Below are positions 1,026 to 41,543 of a DNA stretch of 64,000 nucleotides, piece after piece. Where the stretch lies: positions 372,001 to 436,000 of the forward strand of contig NZ_JAJFAX010000001.1 of the NCBI RefSeq assembly GCF_019710475.1, read 5' to 3'. Below the pieces are notes generated by a model. The model did no database searches, had not been told where the DNA came from, and saw only the letters and a program-made list of their open reading frames with translations. Positions within the stretch are counted from its first letter, which is position 1. Every line of letters starts with the position of its first letter. Made by a program: the position numbers and the translations under genes. The stretch comes from Glycomyces sp. TRM65418 (GTDB taxonomy: Bacteria > Actinomycetota > Actinomycetes > Mycobacteriales > Micromonosporaceae).

Positions 1026-1877
1026 ATGAGGGACCCTCTCGAATCGCTCACTCCTCCCCAGCGTGAACTGCTGGACGTATGGCTGCCCGGGCTCGAAGCC
1101 GAAGCCGACATGAGCTGGAACCTGGTCGAGACGACGGTGCTGCGGGCCCGAGCGGGGGAACGCACCGTCGTCGTCAAAGCGGGTGGCACTGCGGACCATC
1201 ACATCGAACGAGAAATCCGCGCCCACCGTGAATGGACCGGTCCCTGGGTGCGCAGCGGCCGAGCCGCCCGGTTGCTCCACGCCGATGCCGACGCGAAGCT
1301 GCTGGTCACGGAGTATCTTCCCGGCACTCTCGTCCAAGGCACCGCTGCCGCCGCCGAGACGGACACCTACCGGCAGGCGGGCGAACTGCTCCGCGTGTTC
1401 CACGACCAGTTGGCCTTCGAAGACCCCGACTACGAGCCGCGCATGAACGCGAAGGCGCTGGCGTGGATGGACGGCCGCCACCGGATCGAGCCGGAGATCG
1501 AGGCGGAGCTGCGGGCCGTGGTGCAGTCCTGGCCCGTACCGACAGCGGTCTGCGCACCCTCGCACGGTGACTGGCAGACCCGGAACTGGCTGCAGGACAA
1601 CGGCGTGGTGCGCGTGATCGATTTCGGCAGAGCGGCTCTCCGCCCGGCGGCCGAGGACTTCGAACGCCTTGCGGTCCAGGAGTTCGCCTGGCACTCGGGC
1701 GCCGAAGAGGCGTTCGTCTCCGGCTACGGCACGGACCCGCGCGAACCCGAGGCCTGGTTCCGCCAACGAGTCCGCTCCGCGATCGCCACCGCCTGCTGGG
1801 CCCACCTCGTCGGCGCTGACGATTTCGAAGCCCAGGGCCATCGAATGATCGCCGCAGTACTCGCCGAAGCCGCTTAG
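1026..1877 (+). CDS. Aminoglycoside phosphotransferase-like kinase (APH family)
   Basis: A 283-aa protein with the protein-kinase-like APH fold. K51 in 'TVVVKAG' is the probable ATP-binding lysine, 'EYLPG' (96-100) is the hinge, 'SHGDWQTRNWL' carries the Brenner motif with catalytic D182 and N187, and D199 in 'IDFG' is the metal ligand. The family phosphorylates hydroxyls of aminoglycosides or other small metabolites; the substrate here is unknown. The same frame is open far upstream, but family similarity begins at this ATG and the upstream stretch overlaps the minus-strand operon. A strong hairpin terminator follows the stop. Confidence 0.85.
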   Translation: MRDPLESLTPPQRELLDVWLPGLEAEADMSWNLVETTVLRARAGERTVVVKAGGTADHHIEREIRAHREWTGPWVRSGRAARLLHADADAKLLVTEYLPGTLVQGTAAAAETDTYRQAGELLRVFHDQLAFEDPDYEPRMNAKALAWMDGRHRIEPEIEAELRAVVQSWPVPTAVCAPSHGDWQTRNWLQDNGVVRVIDFGRAALRPAAEDFERLAVQEFAWHSGAEEAFVSGYGTDPREPEAWFRQRVRSAIATACWAHLVGADDFEAQGHRMIAAVLAEAA

Positions 1878-1924
1878 AGTGAAGCGTCTGTCTGCGGGTT
1901 CGCATAAGTGTGCAGTACCTCCGC

Positions 1925-1965
1925 CACGGCAATGCCCCGGTCGACCGAGCCGGGGCATTGCCGTG
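1925..1965 (+). terminator. Intrinsic terminator of the APH-like gene
   Basis: A perfect 16-bp stem (1925-1940 with 1950-1965) closes a 9-nt loop TCGACCGAG, about 48 bp after the kinase stop. There is no U-tract, as is common for actinobacterial terminators. The identical loop recurs in the hairpin at 20567-20605. Confidence 0.75.
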
Positions 1966-2058
1966 AGCGCCGAATCCAGAGCCGATCGCTTCCTTGCAGC
2001 CGCCCTTCAAGGGTGTCCCCGTTGGCGCACTGTCGAGGACGGCGACCGCGTCTCATTG

Positions 2059-2083
2059 CGCCCTCCGGTTCGACCGGAGGGCG
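2059..2083 (-). terminator. Hairpin terminator of the epoxide hydrolase gene
   Basis: A perfect 11-bp stem (2059-2069 with 2073-2083) and a 3-nt TCG loop lie 14 bp beyond the minus-strand epoxide hydrolase stop. It can act on both converging transcripts. Confidence 0.65.
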
Positions 2084-2096
2084 GGCTTGCTCGGGA

Positions 2097-3041
2097 CTAG
2101 GCGGCGTCCTGCTGTTCCAGCCACCGCAACATCGCCTGGGTTGTTGCTTCCGGTTGCTCTTGCTGGATCCAATGACCGGAGTCCAGATTGACCACTTCCA
2201 CATCGGGCACGAACGCCGTCAGGTTCTCAGACCTCCGGACCGCATCGCGGTCGCCGTAGATCATGAGGGCCGGCTGGCGGATGACGGGGTCCACGTCCGC
2301 CAGCAAGTGCCAGTTGCGGTCGAGGTTCCGGTACCAGTTGATGCCGCCCGTGAACCCCGAGGATTCGAAGGCGGTGACGAAAACGGCCAGTTCGGCGTCG
2401 CTCATCAAGGGCTCCCCGAGCGGTGTTTCCGCCTTGGCGAGATTGATCATCGCCATACCCGGCTGAGGCGCTGCGGGCGGCTGGTTCTTCCGGTACATGT
2501 TGCGGAGGAACTGGAAGGTGTGGGCTTCGAGTACGGCGTCGGCGACGCCCGGCTGTCGATTGAAGTGGACGAAATAGAAGTCGCCGCCGAGCACGTCCTC
2601 CATGACCTCGACCCAGGGCTTCGCTCCGCGCTCCTGGTAGGGCAGGCTCAGGTTGATCACCTTGTTCACCCGGTCGGGGTGCAACAAGGTCAGTCCCCAA
2701 ACGACCATTGCGCCCCAGTCATGGCCGACGAAGGCGGCGTCCTCGTATCCGAAGTGGTCGAGCAGTGCGATGAGATCGCCCGACAAGTGCTCGATGTCGT
2801 AGTCGGTCACTTCGGTCGGACGGGATGAGTTGCCGTAGCCCCGCTGGTTCGGAACGATGACATGGTAGCCCGCTGCGGCGAGGGCGGGCACCTGGTGGCG
2901 CCAGGAGAAGGCATGCTCCGGCCAGCCGTGACAGAGCACAATGGGCTTTCCGGCGTCTCGGCGCCCTGCTTCGAAGACTTCGAGTTCCACACCGTTGACG
3001 GCGATGAGGGCGGGCTGGGGAAAATCGTTCGGATCGAACAC
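2097..3041 (-). CDS. Epoxide hydrolase, alpha/beta-hydrolase fold
   Basis: A 314-aa alpha/beta hydrolase. 'CHGWPEHAFSW' is the HGxP oxyanion-hole motif and 'FVGHDWGA' holds the Asp nucleophile (D108). 'IYGDRD' near residue 263 supplies the charge-relay acid and 'SGHW' (H290) the catalytic base. An Asp nucleophile in GHDWG is typical of epoxide hydrolases rather than esterases. The GTG at 3041 is chosen because an AAGGAAG Shine-Dalgarno lies 7 nt upstream and alignment starts here; an in-frame extension to 3251 would overlap the divergent regulator. It is divergent from a WYL regulator (gap 193 bp), its plausible controller. Confidence 0.88.
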   Translation of the reverse strand: MFDPNDFPQPALIAVNGVELEVFEAGRRDAGKPIVLCHGWPEHAFSWRHQVPALAAAGYHVIVPNQRGYGNSSRPTEVTDYDIEHLSGDLIALLDHFGYEDAAFVGHDWGAMVVWGLTLLHPDRVNKVINLSLPYQERGAKPWVEVMEDVLGGDFYFVHFNRQPGVADAVLEAHTFQFLRNMYRKNQPPAAPQPGMAMINLAKAETPLGEPLMSDAELAVFVTAFESSGFTGGINWYRNLDRNWHLLADVDPVIRQPALMIYGDRDAVRRSENLTAFVPDVEVVNLDSGHWIQQEQPEATTQAMLRWLEQQDAA

Positions 3042-3234
3042 TGCATCGCTTCCTTGTCGTTTCGGGGTGATCAGGCGATCGCCGGGATCGAAGACGCGGG
3101 TGCGCCCTCGGGTGACGGCTCGGCGCATCGAACTTGCTCTCGGTGCACCGATCTCGGTTGCGGCCTGATCGGCTGCCTCACCATAGGACGCTTCGCGGAC
3201 AGGATCGGTCCTCGATAAGTGGCAGACTGAGAAA

Positions 3235-4200
3235 ATGCGGAACGATCCCACCGGTCGAGCGCTGCAGCTGCTCTCGCTCCTTCAGACGCATCGTTTCTGG
3301 CGTGGCGCCGAACTCGCCGAACGACTCGAGACCACGGAGCGGACGGTGCGCCGTGACGTCGATCGGCTGCGCGACCTCGGCTACCCGGTCGACGCCACGT
3401 CGGGACGATACGGGGGCTACCGGCTGGCGGCGGGGGCGCACGTGCCGCCCCTCGTCCTCGACGATGACGAGGCCGTCGCGGTAGCCGTCGGACTGCGCTA
3501 CGCCGCGGTGGCGGCCATCGGCGGCATGGAGGAAACGTCGCTGCGCGCCCTGACGAAAATCGAGCAGCTCCTGCCTCATCGGCTCCGCCGACGGGTGGCT
3601 GCGCTGCATTCGAGCGTCACTTCGATGCGGTGGCCGGCCGGCGACGTCGTCGATCCCGAAGTGCTCAGTGCGCTGGCCGCGGCGTGTCGAGATCGTGAGG
3701 ACGTGCGTTTCGACTACCGGCGACGCGATGGCGAAGACGGGCGACGGCTCGTCGAGCCGCACCGACTCGTCACCGCCGCCCATCGCTGGTATCTCGTGGC
3801 ATGGGACCGACATCGCCACGGGTGGCGCACGTTTCGGCTGGATCGGCTTCGGGAGCCCCGGCCGGCGGGCGGTCGTTTCACACCCCGCCCGATCCCGGGC
3901 GGGGATGCGGCGGCCTTCGTCGCAGGCTCACTGGGCTCGATACCCCGTCACCATGAAGCGAGGCTCGCCGTCAACGCGGCGTTCGCCGAACTCGAGGGTG
4001 CGCTTCGATGGGTGGACCACACACTGATCGAGACGAAGGCGGACTTCTGCTCCGTCCAGATCCGCGGCGACGACCTCGACTGGCTTGCCGTGACCGTCGT
4101 CCGCATGGCGCTCACCGCCCCAGTGGCCGTCATCGAACCGGCCGAGCTCGCCGACGCCGTCAGGCGGCTCGCCGCTCACCTCGCTGTCTCGCCGCCGTGA
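3235..4200 (+). CDS. WYL-domain helix-turn-helix transcriptional regulator
   Basis: A 321-aa regulator. Residues 1-60 form a DeoR/HTH_11-type winged helix ('RGAELAERLETTERTVRRDV'), followed by 'RYGGYRLAAG', a conserved turn of this family. A WYL domain lies around 135-230 ('HRWYLVAWDRHR' contains the WYL signature), and the C-terminal WCX part includes 'LDWLAVTVVRMA'. WYL regulators sense small ligands or nucleic acids; here the divergent epoxide hydrolase is the obvious candidate target. The ATG is preceded by an A-rich stretch (gactgagaaa). Confidence 0.9.
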   Translation: MRNDPTGRALQLLSLLQTHRFWRGAELAERLETTERTVRRDVDRLRDLGYPVDATSGRYGGYRLAAGAHVPPLVLDDDEAVAVAVGLRYAAVAAIGGMEETSLRALTKIEQLLPHRLRRRVAALHSSVTSMRWPAGDVVDPEVLSALAAACRDREDVRFDYRRRDGEDGRRLVEPHRLVTAAHRWYLVAWDRHRHGWRTFRLDRLREPRPAGGRFTPRPIPGGDAAAFVAGSLGSIPRHHEARLAVNAAFAELEGALRWVDHTLIETKADFCSVQIRGDDLDWLAVTVVRMALTAPVAVIEPAELADAVRRLAAHLAVSPP

Positions 4201-4328
4201 CGATCAGGAGCGGTCCGGCCGATCAGGTCATGCGGGACCAGAATGTGCCGACGCCTGCTGCTTACGACGGCCCTGCCGCAGAAGGCCTAGACTGCTCGTG
4301 AAAACTTCACAGCATTGAAAGGGACCCC

Positions 4329-4982
4329 TTGTCCACCACGTCTTCCGACCTCTCGCGCCTCGCGCCCCTGCCCGAGCCCGATCCGCCCATGAGCGGACGC
4401 AAAAAGGCCCTCATCGCCCTCGTCGCGGTCGCCGCCCTCGCCATGGCGACCGGTATCGGATGGTTGACCGCCCGGCCCGAGGAACGGCCGGCCTGCTGCA
4501 CCGTGAGGACCGCCATCGCAGACGCCGCCGCGGGGCTCGACTACCAGATCCCGCTCGGATGGGCCCAGATCGATGGAAGGCAGCTCACCGGCTCCGCTTC
4601 CACCGCCGCATCGACCGGTGAGCAAGGGGTCACAGGAGCCCAGGTCCTGGCGTTCGCCGACGTCGCCCCCGCAGCGGACCTGGCGACCTGGACCGAAGGC
4701 CTCGCCGAGTCCGCGTCCGGAACCCTCTACGCCATGGTGCCGGACCGCACGGAGCTCCTGTCTTCTGAACCCGCTTCGGTGAGCGGGAACGAAGCCCACC
4801 AGGTCACCTGGTTGATCTCGCACTCCCGTTACGACGGACCGCTTTACGGGCACGTCATCGTGGTGCGCGCCGCCGACGGACGATCCTCTGCAGTGCTGCT
4901 GGGTTTGGTGTACCCGGACGACCCCGCGCTGCGCGAGGAAGTCGGCTGGATCATCGAATCCGCCGGCCGCAACGGCGCCTGA
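4329..4982 (+). CDS. Membrane-anchored extracytoplasmic protein of unknown function
   Basis: A 217-aa protein with a proline-rich cytoplasmic tail (1-20), a positive 'SGRKK' cluster and one membrane segment at about 26-46 ('ALIALVAVAALAMATGIGWL'). A roughly 170-residue outward domain follows that I cannot assign; it begins with a Cys-Cys pair ('ACCTV'). The TTG at 4329 is taken as start because AAAGGGA precedes it by about 5 nt; the first internal ATG (4389) has no ribosome site. No operon partner. I do not recognise the family. Confidence 0.7.
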   Translation: MSTTSSDLSRLAPLPEPDPPMSGRKKALIALVAVAALAMATGIGWLTARPEERPACCTVRTAIADAAAGLDYQIPLGWAQIDGRQLTGSASTAASTGEQGVTGAQVLAFADVAPAADLATWTEGLAESASGTLYAMVPDRTELLSSEPASVSGNEAHQVTWLISHSRYDGPLYGHVIVVRAADGRSSAVLLGLVYPDDPALREEVGWIIESAGRNGA

Positions 4983-5422
4983 ACCGGAGCGGTCGCACCA
5001 GCCGATCGGGATGACCAGTGCCTCCTCAGTCTGGATCGTTCGGCGGTGGCCTCCGCCAGGGCCCCGGCCAGCGGCGCTGCGAAGCGGCCGGCTGGGGGCG
5101 CGGGTTGCGGCACTTCGGCCGTGCAACGCCCGCCGCAACGCTTCCACCTGGGCCCCTTGATAGTTCCGAGTGACGGCAAGGATCGCCTGCGGACGGTCGG
5201 GACCGGATTCGAGGCCTGTGGACCGGTGATTCGACGACGCGCCGCGACCCGCGGCGGAGTCCGCGATGCCGGGGGCGGCGACCGAGCCGCTCGACGAACG
5301 CGGTGCCGACCAGACCGGCCGAAGCCGGGAGCGTTCACGGGACCCGACCGTTGCGGCGCCGCGGTCGCTCGTGAGCCTCAGGGCCACAGCCGATCTGAGG
5401 AAGCGCCTCCGGAAGGATGCCG
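4983..5422. other. Intergenic stretch, no supported gene
   Basis: About 440 bp with only GC-bias open frames on both strands, none with recognisable domains or ribosome sites. A GGAAGG Shine-Dalgarno at 5411-5416 belongs to the next gene. Confidence 0.6.
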
Positions 5423-6271
5423 GTGCCATATGATGCGCCCGTGACGGCGCATCATCTCGGTCAGACGTTTCCATGGCAGGGACGCTCGGTGTCCTGGGAC
5501 CGGTTCGGCGACGGGCCGCCGCTGGTGTTCCTGCACGGCACCCCGTGGTCCTCTCGGCTGTGGCGGCCGATCGCCGACGCCCTGGCCGGCCGCTTCACCG
5601 TCTACCTGTGGGACATGCCCGGGTACGGCGCCTCCTCCAAGCACCCCGAGCACCGGGTCGACCTCGCATGGCAGGGCGAGCTGTTCACCCGGCTGCTTCG
5701 GGGATGGGGCCTCGAACGGCCGCATGTGATCGCCCACGACTTCGGCGGCGCCGTCGCCCTGCGAGCGCGGCTGCTCCACGGCGCGAGGTTCGCGTCCCTG
5801 TGCCTGACCGACGTCGTGGCGCTGCGCCCTTGGGGCTCGCCCTTCTTCACCCTCGTCCAACGGCACGCGGCCGTGTTCGAACAGCTTCCCGCCGCTGTGC
5901 ACCGCGGGGCCGTCGAGGCCTATATCCGCGGCGCGAGCCACCGCGGCCTGCGCGAGGACGACCTCGCGGCACTGGTGGAGCCGTGGACGGGCGATGAGGG
6001 CCAAGGCGCCTTCTACCGCCAGATCGCCCAGGCCGACGAACGCTACACCGACGAGATCGAACCGCGCTACGGCCGGATCGGCGAACCGACCCACATCGTC
6101 TGGGGAGCCCAGGACACCTGGATCCCCCTCGACCGCGCGCATCGGCTGCAGGCGCTGATTCCCGGTTCCTCGCTGGCCGTGATCGAAGACGCCGGACACC
6201 TGATCCAGCTGGACGCACCCGCCGCGCTCGCCGCCGAACTCACCCGCTGGACGGCGGCCGTCCGCGGGTGA
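5423..6271 (+). CDS. Alpha/beta hydrolase with Asp nucleophile (dehalogenase/epoxide hydrolase-like)
   Basis: A 282-aa alpha/beta hydrolase. 'FLHGTPWSSRLW' is the HGTP oxyanion motif, 'WDMPGYGAS' follows, and 'IAHDFGGAVA' puts an Asp (D106) at the nucleophile elbow. 'WGAQDTWIP' carries the acid and 'EDAGHLIQLD' the catalytic His. An Asp nucleophile implies hydrolytic attack on an epoxide or C-halogen bond through a covalent alkyl-enzyme, as in haloalkane dehalogenases; the substrate is unknown. GTG 5423 is preferred over ATG 5417 because GGAAGG ends 6 nt before it but directly abuts the ATG. Confidence 0.85.
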   Translation: MPYDAPVTAHHLGQTFPWQGRSVSWDRFGDGPPLVFLHGTPWSSRLWRPIADALAGRFTVYLWDMPGYGASSKHPEHRVDLAWQGELFTRLLRGWGLERPHVIAHDFGGAVALRARLLHGARFASLCLTDVVALRPWGSPFFTLVQRHAAVFEQLPAAVHRGAVEAYIRGASHRGLREDDLAALVEPWTGDEGQGAFYRQIAQADERYTDEIEPRYGRIGEPTHIVWGAQDTWIPLDRAHRLQALIPGSSLAVIEDAGHLIQLDAPAALAAELTRWTAAVRG

Positions 6272-6389
6272 TCCGGCGCCGGGGCCTCCCGCGTGTCGGG
6301 TCCCGTCGAATCGGTGAGCCGCGCCTCCGCGCCTTGGACGGTCCGCGGCCGCGGACCTATCCTGAAGTCGGGGCCCGGCATGCGGGCCC

Positions 6390-6437
6390 GCGGACGAGGG
6401 AGCCGTACCCGCACCACGACAAGACGGCCTGAAAAGG
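6390..6437 (+). ncRNA. Guanidine-III (ykkC-III/mini-ykkC-type) riboswitch
   Basis: The segment contains the hallmark strings of the guanidine-III pseudoknot in order. P1 strand GCGG (6390-6393) is followed by ACGAGG (6394-6399), P2 strand GCCGT (6402-6406), P1 partner CCGC (6409-6412), GACAAG (6418-6423) and P2 partner ACGGC (6424-6428). The Shine-Dalgarno GAAAAGG (6431-6437) follows immediately, so folding can mask or expose it, matching translational control in this class. It sits directly before two SMR genes of the Gdx/SugE subtype, the known target of this riboswitch. The boundaries are approximate. Confidence 0.9.
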
Positions 6438-6444
6438 TGACGTC

Positions 6445-6759
6445 ATGGCTTGGACGGTTCTCGTTCTCTCCGGCGTGCTCGAAGCCGTATGGGCATCGGC
6501 GCTGTCGGCTTCCGAAGGCTTCAAGCGCAAGGGCCCCACGGCCCTGTTCGCCGCCGCCCTCACGCTCAGCATGGCCGGGTTGGCGTGGTCGATGACCGCT
6601 CTGCCCACCGGCACCGCCTACGCCGTGTGGGTCGGCGTCGGCGCCACCCTCACCGTGCTGTGGGGCATCCTCACCGGTCGGGAGCGCGCGGATTGGAGTC
6701 GCCTACTGCTGCTGGTGCTCCTGGTCGGCTCGATCGTCGGCCTGAAGGCGGTGAGCTGA
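6445..6759 (+). CDS. sugE: SMR-family guanidinium exporter subunit (Gdx/SugE type)
   Basis: A 104-aa four-helix SMR transporter. The conserved membrane Glu is in 'GVLEAVWASAL' (about residue 13), and 'GTAYAVWVGVGA' is the Gdx/SugE signature, in contrast to Qac-type drug exporters. Gdx proteins exchange guanidinium for protons in the cytoplasmic membrane. It is controlled by the guanidine-III riboswitch just upstream and is followed after 1 nt by a second SMR gene, so the two probably make a heterodimer with opposite topologies. The ATG follows GAAAAGG by 7 nt. Confidence 0.92.
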   Translation: MAWTVLVLSGVLEAVWASALSASEGFKRKGPTALFAAALTLSMAGLAWSMTALPTGTAYAVWVGVGATLTVLWGILTGRERADWSRLLLLVLLVGSIVGLKAVS

Positions 6760-6760
6760 C

Positions 6761-7099
6761 ATGCCGTGGGTCATCCTGCTCGTCAGCGCCGTGTTCGAAG
6801 CCGTCTGGGCGACCGCGCTCGGCGCCTCGCACGGCTTCACCGAACCGGTCCCCACGGTCGTCTTCGCGGTCGCACTGACGGCGAGCATGCTCGGGCTGGG
6901 CCGGGCGGCCGAGCACCTCCCCATCGGCACCGCGTACTCGGTGTGGGTGGGCGTCGGCGCCGCGCTGACGGTCGGGTACGCGATGGCCGCGGGGACCGAG
7001 TCGGTCTCCCCGGCGAAACTGGTCTTCATCACCGGCGTCATCGCCGCCGTCGTCGGTCTCAAGCTCGTCCCCGGCAGATCAGTCGAGTCGAAGGACTGA
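6761..7099 (+). CDS. SMR-family guanidinium exporter, second subunit
   Basis: A 112-aa four-helix SMR protein, paralogous to its neighbour. 'AVFEAVWATALG' holds the essential Glu, and 'GTAYSVWVGVGAALTVGYAM' is the family signature. It starts 1 nt after the upstream stop, so it must be co-translated and shares the riboswitch. Paired SMR genes often encode obligate heterodimers; the C-terminal tail here ('GRSVESKD') is charged, whereas the partner ends directly after helix 4. Confidence 0.9.
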   Translation: MPWVILLVSAVFEAVWATALGASHGFTEPVPTVVFAVALTASMLGLGRAAEHLPIGTAYSVWVGVGAALTVGYAMAAGTESVSPAKLVFITGVIAAVVGLKLVPGRSVESKD

Positions 7100-7103
7100 G
7101 CTG

Positions 7104-8258
7104 TCATCGTGCTCCGGCGCGGTCGCGCAGGGGGCGGAAGCAGTCGCGGAGGTCTTGGACGAGGAGGTCGGGGGCCTCCATCGCGGCGAAGTGGCCGCCT
7201 CGGTCGAACTCGGACCAGTGGACGATCCGGTGCCTGCGTTCCAGGAGGGGGCGAACGGCCGGGTCGTTCGGGAAGACGGCGACGCCGGTCGGCACCTCGG
7301 ACCGCTCGGGAACGGGTTCGTCGCGCACCGCCCGGTATTGGTGCGCCGAGGTCGCACCCGTGCCGGTGAGCCAGTAGAGGGTGACGTTGGTGAGCAATTG
7401 GTCGACGTCGACGGCGTCTTCGGGGAGATCGGCGGCGGGGTCGGTCCAGTCCTTGAACTTGTCGGCGATCCACGCGAGCTGACCGACCGGAGAATCGTTG
7501 AGGGCGTATGCGAGCGTCTGCGGCTTGGTGGACTGGAGGTCGGCGTAGCCGGTGCCGTCGCGGACCAGATCGCGGACGCCGTCGAGGCGGGCGCGCTCGG
7601 CGGGGGTGAGCGCGGCCAGGTCGGCGTCGCCGGCGGCGGGCAGCTCCAGGCCCCCGTTGATGTGGACGCCGACGACCCGGTCGGGGGCGAGGCGGCCGAT
7701 CGCCGGTGAGACCTTGGAACCCGTGTCACCGCCGTGGGCGCCGAAGCGGTCGTAGCCGAGCCGGTCCATGAGCACCAGCCAGGCGGCGGCGATGCGGGCG
7801 TGGTCCCATGCGGGCGCCGACAGCGGCGTCGAGAACGCGAAGCCCGGCAGGGACGGGGCGACCACGTGGAACGCGTCCGCCGGGTCGCCTCCGTGCGCTC
7901 GAGGATCGGTGAGGGGGCCGAGGATCCGCGTGAACTCCACGACCGACCCGGGCCAGCCGTGGGTGATCACGAGCGGCAGCGCGTCGGGTTCGGGCGAGCG
8001 CACGTGGAGGAAGTGCACGCGCTGGCCGTCGATCTCGGTGAGCCCCTGCGGGAACGCGTTCAGGGCGGTCTCGTGGGCGCGCCAGTCGTAGCGGTGCAGC
8101 CAGTGGTCGGCGAGCTGCTGCAGGTAGGGCACCGGGACGCCGGGACTCCAGCCCGGTTCGGGACTGGCGGCGGGCCAGCGGGTGCGCCGCAGCCGGTCCC
8201 GCAGGTCCTCGAGCGCGGCCTCGGGGATGTCGATGCGGAAGTCGGCGATCGGTTCCAT
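7104..8258 (-). CDS. Epoxide hydrolase with N-terminal EHN domain
   Basis: A 384-aa microsomal-type epoxide hydrolase. Residues 1-90 form the EHN domain ('ALEDLRDRLRRTRWP', 'WRAHETALNAFPQ'). The alpha/beta hydrolase core follows, with 'THGWPGSVVEF' (HGWP), the Asp nucleophile D178 in 'AHGGDTGS' and the catalytic His in 'FDRGGHFAAMEAP' close to the C-terminus. This family opens epoxides to diols; bacterial members vary widely in substrate. The ATG at 8258 is chosen from AAAGGA 5 nt upstream; a much longer in-frame reading upstream has no family similarity. It converges on the SMR operon with a 4-bp gap. Confidence 0.9.
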   Translation of the reverse strand: MEPIADFRIDIPEAALEDLRDRLRRTRWPAASPEPGWSPGVPVPYLQQLADHWLHRYDWRAHETALNAFPQGLTEIDGQRVHFLHVRSPEPDALPLVITHGWPGSVVEFTRILGPLTDPRAHGGDPADAFHVVAPSLPGFAFSTPLSAPAWDHARIAAAWLVLMDRLGYDRFGAHGGDTGSKVSPAIGRLAPDRVVGVHINGGLELPAAGDADLAALTPAERARLDGVRDLVRDGTGYADLQSTKPQTLAYALNDSPVGQLAWIADKFKDWTDPAADLPEDAVDVDQLLTNVTLYWLTGTGATSAHQYRAVRDEPVPERSEVPTGVAVFPNDPAVRPLLERRHRIVHWSEFDRGGHFAAMEAPDLLVQDLRDCFRPLRDRAGAR

Positions 8259-8396
8259 GGCAGTCCTTTCGTCCGGCGTCAATGCAATCAGAGCGAGGCG
8301 AGGGCGTCCTCGTTTCGCGCAGGACTCGACGGCGCGAAGTCGCTCGGAGCCCGGGCGGCCGCGTTCAGGTGCTCGGCGATCGGCTTCGCCCTCCGG

Positions 8397-8443
8397 TTGC
8401 GGTGGGCCCTCGGCCCTAATATACTCGTCACACAAGTTTATTA
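8397..8443 (+). promoter_or_regulatory. Promoter with overlapping near-palindromic operator for the HAD-GH13 gene
   Basis: A -35-like TTGCGG (8397-8402), a 17-nt spacer and a -10 TATACT (8420-8425) lie 33 bp before the ATG. A 27-bp near-palindrome (8417-8443, arms of 12 with 10 matching pairs, spacer CAC) covers the -10 box and the start site. That is the position of a repressor operator, and the pattern suits a TetR or MarR protein. Confidence 0.55.
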
Positions 8444-8457
8444 GAGGCGGGTGCATC

Positions 8458-10644
8458 ATGAGGAACTTCGACACGATCAGAGCCGTCCTGTTCGACATGG
8501 ACGGCACGTTGGTGGAGTCCGACGCGGCCGTCGAGCGGGCATGGGAGGCCTGGGCCGTCGAGTACAGCGTCGAGCCGTCCGCCGCGCTCGCCATCGCGCA
8601 CGGCGCGCCGGCCCCCGACACCGTGGCGAAGCTCCGCGCCGACCTGGATCCGGCCGACGTCGCCGCCGCCGCGGCGCGACAGCTCGAACTGCAGTACGAC
8701 GACCTCGCGGACGTGACGGCCACGCCCGGCGCGCACCGGCTGATCGGCGTCCTGGACCGACTCGACCTGCCGTGGGCCGTGGTCACCAGCGCCGACGGCC
8801 GTCTCGCTCGCGCCCGCCTGGCCGCCGCGGGCATCACACCGCCGCTGCTGCTCACGGTCGAAGACGTCACCCGCGGCAAACCCGATCCCGAGGGCTACCT
8901 TCTGGCCGCCGACCGGCTCGGCGTCGACCCGGCGGACTGCCTCGTCGTGGAGGACTCCGAACCCGGTCTCGCAGCCGGACGAGCGGCCGGCGCGACCACC
9001 GCCTCGCTGCGCGGCCTCGACGCCGACCTCATCCTGACCGACCTGGGCCGGCTGGCCCGGCTGCTGCGGCGACACCACGATCCGTCCGGGTGGTGGCAGG
9101 ACGCGGCCGGGTACCAGGTCTACCTCCCGTCCTTCGCCGACAGCGACGGCGACGGCTGGGGCGACCTGCCCGGCGTCGCAGCGCACCTCGATCACATCGC
9201 CGCCCTCGGCGTCGACATGCTGTGGCTGACGCCGTTCTTCGCCTCGCCCATGCGCGACCACGGCTACGACGTCAGCGACTACCTCGCCGTCGACCCGAGC
9301 TTCGGCGGCGAGCAGGCCCTCGACGACCTGATCGCCGCCGCGCACCGGCGGGGCCTGCGCGTCATCGGCGACCTCGTCGTCAACCACACCAGTGACCGGC
9401 ACCGGTGGTTCCGGGAAGCGGCGGCGAGCCGCGAGAGCCGCTACCGCGACCACTACATCTGGCGCGACCCCGCACCCGGCGGCGGCCCGCCGAACAACTG
9501 GCTCTCGCACTTCGGCGGCCCGGCATGGACCTACAGCGAGGCGACCGGCCAGTACCATCTGCACCTGTTCAAGGCCGAGCAGCCGGACCTCAACTGGCGC
9601 AATCCCGCCGTCGCCGAGGCGATCGACGCGGTCATCGAGCACTGGCTCGATCGCGGCCTCGACGGCTTCCGCATCGACACCGCCGCGTACCTGGTCAAGC
9701 ATCCCGACCTGCCGAGCAATCCCCTTCTGCCGCCGGGCGAGCGGTATCTCAGCGGCACCGTGGCCGCGGACTGGGCCCTGCAGGACCACCGGTACGACAT
9801 CCACCAGCCCGACGTCCACGCCGTTCACGAGCGCTGGCGTCGCGTCGCCGATCGGCACGGCGCGCTGCTGGTCGGCGAGATCTACGAGACCGACCCGGCC
9901 GCTCTGACGGCTTACCTCGCCGCCGATCGGCTGCATTCGGCGTTCTGGTTCGGACTGCTCACCGGCGAGTTCGATCCCGCCGCCACCCCGGCCGAACTGC
10001 TGGCAGCCGCGCAGACGTCACCGGGGCTGTCATGGGCGCAGGGGAACCACGACTGCCGTCGCGCCGCCACCAGATTCGGGGCCCGCCGATCGCTGGCCCT
10101 CCATGCGATGACGGCGTTCCTGCCCGGCCTCACCTGGATCTACCAGGGCGAAGAACTCGGACTCGAGGACGGCGTCGTGCCTCCCGAACGAGCCGCCGAC
10201 CCGTTGGCGACGGCGCACCCCGAATCGAGTCGCGACAGCGCCCGCACGCCGATGCCCTGGGACGCCGGGCCGGGACTCGGATTCACCACGGGAGAGCCGT
10301 GGCTGCCGCTCGGAGGGCGAACCGAAGCCGATACCGTCGCGAGCCAGGAAGAGGACCCGAACTCGCCGCTGCGGACCATGCGACGGCTCATGCGCGTGCG
10401 CCACGCCGTCCTCGACGATCTGCCGAAAGGGCTGGACGACTGGCAGGTCGACGACGGCGTGGCCGCTTTCCGTCGAGGATCCGTCCAGGTCTTCGCGAAC
10501 CTCGGAGCGACCGCCGTCGACGGCGTGGCCCCCGCAGGGCCCGTGGTGTTCGACAGCGACGACCACCGGGTCACTCCCGAAACCGCCTCCAGTGGACCGA
10601 TCCGGCTCGCCCCGGGCCAGGCCGTGGTCGCCTTCACGGCGTGA
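8458..10644 (+). CDS. Fusion of a HAD-family sugar phosphatase/mutase domain and a GH13 glycosidase
   Basis: 728 aa in two enzymes. Residues 5-205 form a HAD subfamily IA domain: 'FDMDGTL' (D13, D15), 'VVTSADG', 'GKPDPEGY' (K141) and 'VVEDSEPG', as in beta-phosphoglucomutase-like phosphatases. Residues 212-728 are a GH13 (beta/alpha)8 glycosidase: 'DHGYDVSDY', nucleophile D407 in 'GFRIDTAA', acid/base E474 in 'LVGEIYE', third acid D532 in 'GNHD', then a C-terminal beta domain. All catalytic residues of both parts are present. No signal peptide, so it is cytosolic. An oligo- or phospho-sugar may be hydrolysed and dephosphorylated in sequence. The join is continuous, in frame and without a linker. 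Confidence 0.9.
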   Translation: MRNFDTIRAVLFDMDGTLVESDAAVERAWEAWAVEYSVEPSAALAIAHGAPAPDTVAKLRADLDPADVAAAAARQLELQYDDLADVTATPGAHRLIGVLDRLDLPWAVVTSADGRLARARLAAAGITPPLLLTVEDVTRGKPDPEGYLLAADRLGVDPADCLVVEDSEPGLAAGRAAGATTASLRGLDADLILTDLGRLARLLRRHHDPSGWWQDAAGYQVYLPSFADSDGDGWGDLPGVAAHLDHIAALGVDMLWLTPFFASPMRDHGYDVSDYLAVDPSFGGEQALDDLIAAAHRRGLRVIGDLVVNHTSDRHRWFREAAASRESRYRDHYIWRDPAPGGGPPNNWLSHFGGPAWTYSEATGQYHLHLFKAEQPDLNWRNPAVAEAIDAVIEHWLDRGLDGFRIDTAAYLVKHPDLPSNPLLPPGERYLSGTVAADWALQDHRYDIHQPDVHAVHERWRRVADRHGALLVGEIYETDPAALTAYLAADRLHSAFWFGLLTGEFDPAATPAELLAAAQTSPGLSWAQGNHDCRRAATRFGARRSLALHAMTAFLPGLTWIYQGEELGLEDGVVPPERAADPLATAHPESSRDSARTPMPWDAGPGLGFTTGEPWLPLGGRTEADTVASQEEDPNSPLRTMRRLMRVRHAVLDDLPKGLDDWQVDDGVAAFRRGSVQVFANLGATAVDGVAPAGPVVFDSDDHRVTPETASSGPIRLAPGQAVVAFTA

Positions 10645-10727
10645 GCCGATCGCCGGGCGTGTCGCCGACCGAACGGCGGTGTGCTGACGAGGCGCAGCTG
10701 GTCGTGGCGCCGCCCAGCCGACATCAT

Positions 10728-10754
10728 TTGCCGGTTCGGCAAGAAAATTTGCCG
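10728..10754. repeat. Three alternating TTGCCG/CGGCAA half-sites
   Basis: TTGCCG (10728-10733), CGGCAA (10737-10742) and TTGCCG (10749-10754) form two overlapping inverted repeats downstream of the HAD-GH13 gene and upstream of the methyltransferase. They could be a weak terminator or a repressor site; there is no decisive evidence for either. Confidence 0.4.
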
Positions 10755-10865
10755 GGATCCGGTTGCAGCGGGGACGATGGCCGGACCGGGATCGGGCCTC
10801 GGCGCGCCGCGTGAGCGCCCGTCCCATTCCCGGTGCAGGCCTTCCGACGACCAGGGCAGGGATAC

Positions 10866-11471
10866 ATGGACGCACGATACTGGGACGAGCGATACGGCAG
10901 CCGCGATCAACTCTTCAGCGGCGCGCCCAACGGGGTGCTCGTCGCCGAGACCGCCGACCTGCCGCCGGGACGGGCACTCGATGTCGGCTGCGGCGAAGGC
11001 GGCGACGCGATCTGGCTGGCCCGGCGGGGGTGGCGGGTCACCGCCGTCGACCTCTCACAGGTCGCACTCCGACGCGCTGCCGCGGCAGGAGCGGACCTGG
11101 CCGACCGGGTGACCTGGACCCGAAGCGACCTCGCGGCCGCGCCGCCGCCGAAGCACGCGTTCGACCTGGTTTCCGCGCAGTACTTCCCGCTTCCGAAGCA
11201 GCCCGACCACGCCGCGCTGCGCGGCCTGCTGGACGCCGTCGCACCGGGCGGCACCGTGCTGATCGCGAGCCACGACCTCGCCGACCTCGGCCACCTCCGG
11301 GACGAAGGCGTCGACCTCGCCGACTTCTACCAGCCCGCCGACATCGCCGGTCTCCTCGGCGGCGACTGGGACGTGCTGGTCAATGAGACTCGCCCCCGAA
11401 CCCGCCCGGGACCGGAGGGGACGCGCCACACCCGCGACACCGTCCTGCGCGCTCGGCGCCACGACCGATAG
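10866..11471 (+). CDS. Class I SAM-dependent methyltransferase
   Basis: A 201-aa Rossmann-fold methyltransferase. 'YWDERYGS' at the N-terminus and 'ALDVGCGEGGDAIWLA' (motif I) bind SAM. 'VTAVDLSQ' ends with the acidic residue that holds the ribose, and 'FDLVSAQYFP' is the post-II region. It resembles TehB/thiopurine-type small-molecule methyltransferases, but the acceptor is unknown. The ATG at 10866 is chosen because GGG lies 4 nt upstream and family similarity begins here; an in-frame ATG at 10833 has no ribosome site. Confidence 0.87.
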   Translation: MDARYWDERYGSRDQLFSGAPNGVLVAETADLPPGRALDVGCGEGGDAIWLARRGWRVTAVDLSQVALRRAAAAGADLADRVTWTRSDLAAAPPPKHAFDLVSAQYFPLPKQPDHAALRGLLDAVAPGGTVLIASHDLADLGHLRDEGVDLADFYQPADIAGLLGGDWDVLVNETRPRTRPGPEGTRHTRDTVLRARRHDR

Positions 11472-13115: not shown

Positions 13116-13274
13116 TCAGCGGCGGCCGATGGCGAAGCCGATGAGCAGCCATCCGGCGGCCGCGGCGAGGCCGATGACGACGGCCATCGCGATGCGGTCG
13201 AGCATGACGTAGAAGCCGATGCCGAAGACGAGCGCCATGATGACGGCGCCGCCGAAGCGGACGGTGTTGGACAT
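13116..13274 (-). CDS. Small double-TM membrane protein (52 aa)
   Basis: 52 aa, starting from the ATG at 13274 with AAAGGCAGG upstream. Two hydrophobic helices ('FGGAVIMALVFGIGFYVML', 'MAVVIGLAAAAGWLLIGFAI') are separated by a short 'DR' turn, with a basic C-terminus 'GRR'. I do not recognise the family. It lies directly downstream of the Cys-rich secreted precursor on the same strand, past a 24-bp hairpin, so it could be a read-through partner such as an immunity protein. That role is inference from position only. Confidence 0.7.
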   Translation of the reverse strand: MSNTVRFGGAVIMALVFGIGFYVMLDRIAMAVVIGLAAAAGWLLIGFAIGRR

Positions 13275-13307
13275 GGGTACCTGCCTTTCACTGGTGTGGA
13301 AGCGGTT

Positions 13308-13366
13308 GCGCACGCCCGGCGCGCCGAACGGGGTCCCCCGTTCCGTTCGGCGCGCCGGGCGTGCGC
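13308..13366 (-). terminator. Exceptionally long perfect hairpin terminator
   Basis: A perfect 24-bp stem (13308-13331 with 13343-13366) and an 11-nt loop start 6 bp after the stop of the halocin-like precursor. There is no long U-tract. It separates that gene from the 52-aa membrane protein and would cut or attenuate transcription into it. Confidence 0.85.
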
Positions 13367-13372
13367 GGCGAA

Positions 13373-14113
13373 TCACCCGCAGATGGCCTCAGTGGCGGCC
13401 TGGCATCCCAGGAAGGCGATCAGGGAGCACACGGTGGCGCAGCCCAGTCCGCCCGGTCCCGAGACGAGTCCGAGGGCGATGCAGGCGCCGTAGCAGCCGG
13501 CGCCCCCGCCTGTCGCGCAGAGTGCCCCGACGGCCCATTCGCACACCCCCTGCTGCGACATGTCGTCGCCGGCGGCCAAGGCCTCGGCCGCCTCCTTGCA
13601 CTCGGCGTCGGCCGTACCGCTGTCGGCGGCCGCGGTCATCTCGCGGTATTCCGGAGCGGCGGTCAGCTCGCCGTCGGACCCGATGGTGCCCTCGTAGACC
13701 GCATCGCCTTGGTCGAGCACCGTGATGTCCACGGCGTGGGGGTCGGCCCCGCGGCCGACCGTGGGAGTGAAGACCATGGTGCGGTCCCACAGGACCTGGT
13801 CGTCGGCGAGGTCGACGAAGTAGAGGCTCACCCGGGAGTGCTCGGGGTCCAGCGAGTTCACGGCCACGCTGGCGTAGTCGCCCTTGACGTTGACGATCGC
13901 CTCGTCGAAGTCGAACGGCGCGTCGGCCGACTCGTCCTGTTGCGCGAACGCCGCCGAGTCGGCGACCACGGCCTTCGCTTCGGTCTGCTGCTGCGAGGTG
14001 CCGGTGGAGTCCGGCGGATCGGGAGTTTGCGGCGCCGGGGGCCCCGCCTGGGCCGACGCTCCGATGCCGAGGAGCGCGACCAGCGCGGTGACGCACAATA
14101 GCAGTCGCTTCAT
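13373..14113 (-). CDS. Secreted precursor with Cys-rich C-terminal halocin-C8-like peptide domain
   Basis: 246 aa with a clear Sec signal peptide (1-23, cleavage after 'ASAQA'). A Pro/Gln-rich and acidic pro-region with predicted beta content (about 24-165) follows, then a C-terminal domain with nine cysteines at 172, 191, 199, 207, 211, 225, 229, 237 and 245. The last eight have the mirror-symmetric spacing C7C7C3C13C3C7C7C in a hydrophobic Gly/Ala-rich helical sequence. This resembles the peptide region of halocin C8 and its actinobacterial relatives, which are antimicrobial peptides released from a larger precursor. AAGGAGA lies 8 nt before the ATG. The antimicrobial role is inference. Confidence 0.82.
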   Translation of the reverse strand: MKRLLLCVTALVALLGIGASAQAGPPAPQTPDPPDSTGTSQQQTEAKAVVADSAAFAQQDESADAPFDFDEAIVNVKGDYASVAVNSLDPEHSRVSLYFVDLADDQVLWDRTMVFTPTVGRGADPHAVDITVLDQGDAVYEGTIGSDGELTAAPEYREMTAAADSGTADAECKEAAEALAAGDDMSQQGVCEWAVGALCATGGGAGCYGACIALGLVSGPGGLGCATVCSLIAFLGCQAATEAICG

Positions 14114-14716: not shown

Positions 14717-14881
14717 TCAGAATCCGGCGTCGATCGTCGGCGCCGCGAACGCCGTCAGGGCGAAAGCGGCCGCCAAGAGCGCGATGCCGACGCCGCGGGT
14801 GCGGCGGGACGGCAGGGGTAGCGCGGCGACGACCAGCAGGATGATCGCGATCAGGTAGAACACGGCTTGGAATGTGGCCAT
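14717..14881 (-). CDS. Small double-TM membrane protein (54 aa)
   Basis: 54 aa, starting from the ATG at 14881 with GGAGAG 6 nt upstream, which decides against the longer in-frame reading. Two membrane helices ('AVFYLIAIILLVVAALPL' and 'GIALLAAAFALTAFAAPTI') are joined by a basic 'SRRTRG' loop. This layout resembles a widespread uncharacterised family of about 55-aa actinobacterial proteins; no function is known. Monocistronic. Confidence 0.75.
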   Translation of the reverse strand: MATFQAVFYLIAIILLVVAALPLPSRRTRGVGIALLAAAFALTAFAAPTIDAGF

Positions 14882-28043: not shown

Positions 28044-28083
28044 ACGCTCAGGGGCCGTCGCATCGGCGACGGCCCCTGAGCGT
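28044..28083. terminator. Bidirectional terminator between the SRPBCC and MocA-type genes
   Basis: A perfect 17-bp stem (28044-28060 with 28067-28083) and a 6-nt loop lie between two convergent genes. Confidence 0.8.
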
Positions 28084-41498: not shown

Positions 41499-41503
41499 CA
41501 CGG

Positions 41504-41536
41504 CGGCGCCCCGGCGGGACTCCCGCCGGGGCGCCG
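41504..41536. terminator. Bidirectional terminator
   Basis: A perfect 15-bp stem (41504-41518 with 41522-41536) and a 3-nt loop lie between the CBM2 gene and the convergent GAP-family gene, 5 and 7 bp from their stops. Confidence 0.8.
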
Positions 41537-41543
41537 CGCTTCG

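Follow-up and report, generated by a model that had tools for sequence, protein, structure and literature searches.

We propose that the gene at positions 13373 to 14113 (minus strand) of the window, by which we mean the whole 64,000-nucleotide stretch of Glycomyces DNA analysed here, encodes the secreted precursor of a halocin-C8-type antimicrobial peptide. The peptide would fold into a hairpin held together by nested disulfides, and a membrane protein encoded downstream would protect the producing cell. We regard this reading as probable. The protein is related to halocin C8 and carries a conserved cysteine array, the cysteines of the aligned relatives vary palindromically and, in most of the loci that we read, a small membrane-protein gene lies downstream of the precursor gene.

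The gene was recognised as an open reading frame for 246 amino acids, whose translation matches the NF040679 and TIGR04449 models; AAGGAG precedes its ATG start. All three parts that the initial annotation had assigned to the precursor were found. A Sec-type signal peptide, read by eye, spans residues 1-23 and ends in AQA (14045-14113, minus strand). It is followed on the same strand by a pro-region of approximately residues 24-190. The cysteine-rich C-terminal domain (residues 191-246 plus the stop codon; 13373-13543, minus strand) is the putative mature peptide, as suggested by conservation, the palindromic cysteine columns and the helices predicted by AlphaFold2. Eight of the ten cysteines of the precursor fall in this domain. 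One of the other two lies in the signal peptide and the second, C172, in the pro-region, where it has no counterpart in the aligned relatives. About 600 nt upstream of the precursor start, the window also encodes a 54-aa protein with two hydrophobic stretches (14717-14881, minus strand), for which only weak family matches were found, the best being the SE1626 family (E 0.094).

The relation to halocin C8 had been claimed from the sequence, and a search with the TIGR04449 model (halocin C8 domain) places the window protein above the cut-off, with 32.0 against 24 bits over residues 190-246. NF040679 (halocin C8 precursor-like, equivalog) matches residues 30-245 with 111.8 bits (E 3.8e-32) and falls short of its cut-off of 200 bits, which makes the protein a relative and not a member by that cut-off. 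Two further models did not apply: TIGR04450 (putative immunity/bacteriocin fusion protein) scored 6.2 bits (E 7) against a cut-off of 27, and no Pfam family matched the window precursor at E up to 10, so that PF22862 (Hac8_like_N) is absent. The latter domain occupies the N-terminal half of both haloarchaeal precursors tested (E 1.1e-44 and 2.7e-51) and was found in none of four bacterial relatives. Profile comparison likewise gave no match between haloarchaeal and bacterial pro-regions. Three of the four bacterial relatives pass TIGR04449 (loci L010, L013 and L028, with 35.1, 34.2 and 30.5 bits) and the fourth, L008, lies narrowly below it (23.6 against 24). Only L013, the Staphylococcus argensis protein, passes NF040679, with 416.3 bits. 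A weak hint of a PepSY domain was seen in the staphylococcal pro-region (E 0.079).

The precursor of halocin C8 itself is reported to comprise 283 aa, to be exported by the Tat pathway and to be processed to HalI, an immunity peptide, and a halocin of 76 aa (PMC11509114); a further report describes its protease as unidentified (PMC12893001). Halocin C8 and the haloarchaeal halocin C8-like proteins share with the window protein the layout of a secreted precursor with a hydrophobic, cysteine-rich C-terminal domain. Halocin C8 differs in having a Tat signal (PMC11509114), whereas the signal of the window protein is Sec-like and its precursor lacks PF22862. The haloarchaeal proteins in our comparisons are halocin C8-like plasmid proteins and not the characterised halocin C8. 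Taken by its sequence, then, the window protein is a bacterial relative of halocin C8 with a common C-terminal domain, not halocin C8 proper. It is not a new kind of protein.

Conservation is concentrated in the mature part and is far lower in the pro-region. Over the 56 residues from the first cysteine of the domain, L010 is 84% and L008 70% identical to the window protein, against 36% and 33% in the pro-region. For L013, 59% of the mature domain and 19% of the pro-region are identical. The ten aligned bacterial peptides are hydrophobic (GRAVY 0.85 to 1.22) with net charges of -2 to +3, that of the window peptide being -2. They are thus near neutral, unlike classic cationic peptides.

The last eight cysteines of the window precursor are separated by 7, 7, 3, 13, 3, 7 and 7 residues (C7C7C3C13C3C7C7C). 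Recomputing these gaps confirmed the mirror symmetry described in the initial annotation as an exact palindrome. Among the 105 orderings of these seven gaps only three are palindromes, and an exact mirror by position is expected with a chance of about 1e-4 for eight cysteines with fixed ends in a span of 55 residues. Conservation in relatives is a stronger argument than either figure.

The cysteines of 13 aligned domains occupy 12 columns, half of them before and half after the central loop, and their presence is palindromic in all 13 rows. These rows represent four patterns and not thirteen independent events. With the loop written as a slash, the pattern of the window protein is -CC-CC/CC-CC-, and all five aligned Corynebacterium rows of its type (L008/L009, L023, L025, L010 and L026) have an identical array. 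In the single row of a second Corynebacterium type, the pair next to the innermost is missing (-CC--C/C--CC-). Three staphylococcal-type rows lack exactly the innermost pair (-CC-C-/-C-CC-). In the three haloarchaeal rows (CCCC-C/C-CCCC), the next-to-innermost pair lies four residues further out on both arms and an outermost pair is added. Three of the four cysteine pairs of the window protein therefore share their columns with the haloarchaeal domains and the fourth is four residues off on both arms; these three halocin C8-like proteins have ten cysteines (2,7,3,7,12-13,7,8,8,6-7) to the eight of the window protein.

The ten bacterial rows are palindromic without the need of an alignment. The same is true of the two inner pairs of the haloarchaeal rows; their outer rungs require a five-residue insertion in one arm. 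The haloarchaeal sample consisted of 15 plasmid records with annotated halocin C8-like genes, of which five were opened and three aligned. Among the 180 distinct orders of the six columns of the C-terminal arm, the observed one alone mirrors the N-terminal arm. Limited to the four variable columns this is one order in 12, and the three bacterial patterns by themselves also give one in 12.

Several domains were left out of the 13 rows. L011 (decayed), L027/L038, L040 and L041 (fragments) are broken or fragmentary, the domain of the Halobacterium locus L030 is cut short, L031 was not aligned (its gaps are those of L006), and L039, of the second type, has an intact palindromic domain in a broken gene. 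L025 and L014 were counted with precursors that look broken upstream of the domain, and L012 with an unclear start. Outside the alignment, a further second-type Corynebacterium domain is palindromic as well, with gaps of 7, 11, 12, 11 and 7. Unpaired changes were seen in the decayed S. coagulans copy (L011; gaps 7, 7, 21 and 15), which has lost a single cysteine, and in the Corynebacterium fragment L027/L038, in which one cysteine is replaced. The second Corynebacterium type comprises L028, L041, L029/L039 and L040 and has six cysteines (7,11,12,11,7) in two complete domains; one genome, G1088, carries two such loci, one of them broken. Homologues with other cysteine spacings had been named in advance as the finding that would speak against a mirrored array. 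The spacings do differ between relatives, but they differ in mirror pairs, which favours the mirrored-disulfide model rather than refuting it.

We take the palindromic variation as evidence that suggests nested disulfides in a kinked helical hairpin. The simplest explanation of the mirror would be the pairs C191-C245, C199-C237, C207-C229 and C211-C225, a pairing that we infer from covariation. For the 62-residue domain, AlphaFold2 predicts helices at 3-15, 20-30, 41-51 and 53-61. The best model has a mean pLDDT of 82.7 and a pTM of 0.62; the input was a thin alignment of five sequences, and the pLDDT of the five models ranges from 82.7 down to 53.5. Each predicted arm consists of two helices; the breaks, at 16-19 and 52, roughly mirror each other. 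Every proposed cysteine pair would join helix 1 to helix 4 or helix 2 to helix 3. The model was read for its helices and does not test the pairing itself. The suggestion that two antiparallel helical arms are clamped by disulfides thus gains indirect support from the pairwise loss and shift of cysteines and from the predicted helices, with the pairing itself read from the aligned cysteines. The accompanying argument, that spacings of 3 and 7 put the cysteines on one helix face, does not hold for a straight helix, in which i+4 turns by 40 degrees and i+8 by 80 degrees; the modelled arms are broken.

Could the mirror instead be a coincidence of helical spacing, with the disulfides paired otherwise, for example within each arm? 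Helices often carry cysteines at i, i+4 and i+8, and the nested pairing is drawn from covariation. Against this, cysteines are present, absent or shifted as mirror pairs in every one of the 13 rows and in all four patterns, and pairing within each arm gives no reason for the covariation of C207 with C229 or of C211 with C225. We hold coincidence to be improbable and retain the nested hairpin.

Similar architecture is known from the plant alpha-hairpinins, in which a C1X3C2XnC3X3C4 motif forms two antiparallel helices linked by Cys1-Cys4 and Cys2-Cys3 bonds (PMC7191063). The core of the window domain, C207-X3-C211-X13-C225-X3-C229, fits this motif. The shared C-X3-C...C-X3-C core is a comparison of how the folds may work, with two disulfides in the plant peptides and four proposed here, and we claim no relation in sequence. 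No PDB sequence matched the domain profile at E up to 1, and Foldseek returned no match for the domain model. For the low-confidence full-length model it returned 586 matches at E up to 10, the best at 0.062 and none at 0.001.

The gene is rare and patchy in the samples searched. The window precursor was the sole match in its own genome, in a protein search of 150 family genomes, in a search of 396 phylum genomes with NF040679 and in a search of 197 class genomes with the 13-row profile. TIGR04449 gave two matches in 250 family genomes. One was the window protein and the other (G061, locus L004; 24.5 bits) was rejected, as by eye it is a frame opposite a membrane-protein gene and not a relative. 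The same model gave two matches in 397 order genomes, the window protein and L008. The family, order, class and phylum samples partly overlap, so these counts are not additive. In the genus of L008, very probably Corynebacterium, NF040679 matched in 8 of 242 genomes and the profile in 9 of 242, some of them fragments. A scan of genome contigs yielded four relatives, in C. glucuronolyticum, Staphylococcus coagulans, S. intermedius and S. argensis; an earlier scan of 83 stretches had found none. Among viral contigs, one contains a staphylococcal-type copy, and two further scans found nothing beyond that contig. Searches of plasmids and phages with the window protein and its bacterial relatives gave only two chance-level matches. 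Several copies are decayed or lie beside IS elements. Such decay and IS neighbours suggest a competition gene with fast turnover, in which this pattern is often seen. At L009 (approximately 1300-11200), the Corynebacterium-type homologue of G814 sits amid several transposase-like genes and a ParA-like gene, as judged by eye, so that this locus looks mobile.

This distribution bears on the alternative that the product is secreted and forms a disulfide hairpin but does not kill, serving for example as a signal, as part of the surface or spore coat, or to inhibit a protease. A killing activity of the window protein and its bacterial relatives is putative, and the genes around the precursor, read by eye from the list of open reading frames, are apparently metabolic, with no dedicated transporter adjoining. 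In addition, some alpha-hairpinins inhibit trypsin (PMC7191063). A rare and patchy gene (one of 150 family genomes; nine of 242 Corynebacterium genomes, fragments included) whose copies are in several cases decayed and flanked by IS elements nevertheless looks more like a competition gene, and the domain family is named after an antimicrobial peptide. We judge a non-killing role to be improbable and continue to favour an antimicrobial one. In BLAST pieces longer than 150 bases, only the neighbouring SDR gene is common to nine same-genus genomes, without its flanks.

Downstream of the precursor, on the same strand, the window encodes a 52-aa protein with two hydrophobic stretches (13116-13274, minus strand), a possible immunity protein. 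The two-TM frame described in the initial annotation was thus recovered from the translation. Its GC content at codon positions 1, 2 and 3 (0.635/0.462/0.981) is a strong coding signal. The gene starts 98 nt past the precursor stop. The linkage of the two genes, proposed for a synteny check, could not be shown, with no convincing relative of the 52-aa protein in 99 other family genomes (best E 0.03). A kinship with cation antiporters was rejected, the matches being weak and far below the cut-off, and BLAST against the haloarchaeal and bacterial downstream peptides found nothing significant. A GTG overlapping the precursor stop (GTGA) opens an 86-aa frame (13116-13376, minus strand) that crosses the intergenic hairpin and continues as the 52-aa protein. 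The coding signal of the added part (GC 0.735/0.676/0.794) is weaker than that of the 52-aa frame, and translational coupling via the GTGA overlap is possible.

The hairpin between the two genes (13308-13366, minus strand) was present as annotated. Its arms, 13308-13331 and 13343-13366, pair over 24 bp with 100% complementarity around an 11-nt loop. Folding of the surrounding 101 nt gives z = -7.3, and none of 200 shuffles was as good. No other perfect repeat among the 23 inverted repeats listed in the window (seed 12, distance up to 40) is as long, and the five further perfect ones measure 16-19 bp. A T-tailed terminator was rejected, as no T-run follows, and a known RNA family was rejected, as no Rfam model matched. 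Possible functions of the hairpin are to reduce read-through towards the 52-aa gene or to shield the end of the precursor mRNA. In ten relatives the precursor and the downstream peptide are only 6-15 nt apart, which leaves no room for such a structure, so the hairpin is not a conserved part of these loci. Short-looped perfect hairpins of 17-19 bp also occur in the window at 759-801, 28044-28083 and 41503-41537 and are possibly T-less terminators.

Thirteen downstream loci were read together, comprising ten of the main Corynebacterium and staphylococcal types (L009, L010, L012, L013, L014 and five further), the window and two second-type Corynebacterium loci. In all ten main-type loci, some with decayed precursors, an open reading frame for 25-36 aa begins 6-15 nt past the precursor stop, with a purine-rich stretch ahead. 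The peptides have 28-36 aa in Corynebacterium and 25-28 aa in the staphylococcal-type loci, in contrast to the 52-aa protein of the window. Each forms a single hydrophobic helix, and FL-x-x-YS-x-x-x-(T/S)-L is the pattern common to them. When eight pairs were compared, third codon positions accounted for the majority of the DNA differences in seven, which is what selection on a translated gene would produce. The peptides form one family common to Corynebacterium and Staphylococcus. None of those compared with Pfam (three) or NCBIfam (two) passes a cut-off. One peptide comes close to the T-cell receptor zeta transmembrane profile (23.5 against a cut-off of 25 bits), probably by convergence. The tyrosine and, five residues on, a threonine or serine are kept, and the peptides may dimerise through these residues.

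Other lineages have other genes at this position. In the second-type copies L028, L041, L029 and L040, the open reading frame at -19 to +55 encodes 107-126 aa and has several hydrophobic stretches. The haloarchaeal loci L006, L007 and L031 share with the window a small downstream gene with two hydrophobic stretches, here for 68 aa and 19-24 nt downstream; L005 has a 230-aa gene instead. In L030 (Halobacterium plasmid, 1889-4674) the halocin gene stops soon after the N-terminal arm and is separated by an annotated IS4-like element from the 68-aa gene, which is intact. No significant similarity was found among the 52-aa, 68-aa and 25-36-aa groups; across a set of 11 peptides the best E was 0.13. 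A small membrane-protein gene is thus the next gene downstream in most loci read, and it differs by lineage. Small membrane proteins encoded beside a bacteriocin gene are typically immunity proteins, and immunity is the likeliest role here.

Alternatively, the pro-region itself may be the immunity protein and the 52-aa neighbour unrelated. Such an arrangement is reported for halocin C8, whose precursor yields HalI (PMC11509114), and the 52-aa gene, for which no convincing relative turned up, is separated from the precursor by 98 nt that include the hairpin. The pro-region of the window protein, however, matches neither PF22862 nor, by profile comparison, the haloarchaeal pro-regions, and small membrane-protein genes stand directly downstream in the Corynebacterium, Staphylococcus and haloarchaeal loci. 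We consider immunity by the pro-region the less likely arrangement, albeit one with a reported precedent, and prefer immunity by the downstream protein.

Under the antimicrobial reading, the Sec signal would be removed as the precursor is exported, and the pro-region would hold the C-terminal peptide in an inactive state or assist its folding. A protease would then cut shortly before Cys191 and release a nearly neutral, hydrophobic peptide of approximately 56-60 residues, with two kinked helical arms joined by four nested disulfides. This peptide would most likely act at the envelope of related bacteria, and the small membrane protein encoded next downstream would most likely protect the producer. 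The pairing, drawn from covariation, and the cleavage, killing and immunity are deduced steps of this scheme.

More tentatively, and with somewhat less than even confidence, we suggest that the archaeal, actinobacterial and staphylococcal halocin-C8-type peptides form one superfamily of cystine-ladder helical hairpins. Their mirrored rungs, mostly four or eight residues apart, would have appeared, vanished or moved by one helical turn in both arms at once. As an immunity factor, most lineages would have adopted a membrane micro-protein of their own (of 52 aa in the window and of 25-36, approximately 107-126 or 68 aa elsewhere), and would not rely on the N-terminal half of the precursor alone. 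A literature search found nothing on both halocin C8 and disulfides, and published disulfide data may have been missed; a limited search recognised nothing, by title or abstract, on bacterial relatives of halocin C8. Within this limited check, neither the paired cysteine variation across archaea and bacteria nor the lineage-specific downstream membrane micro-proteins were found described.

Taken together, covariation across two domains of life turns the cysteine array into a testable disulfide map. If the model is true, halocin-C8-type peptides would offer a stable, nearly neutral and all-helical disulfide scaffold. The 25-36-aa downstream peptides, which were found by reading the DNA beside the precursors, make producer protection in bacteria directly testable.
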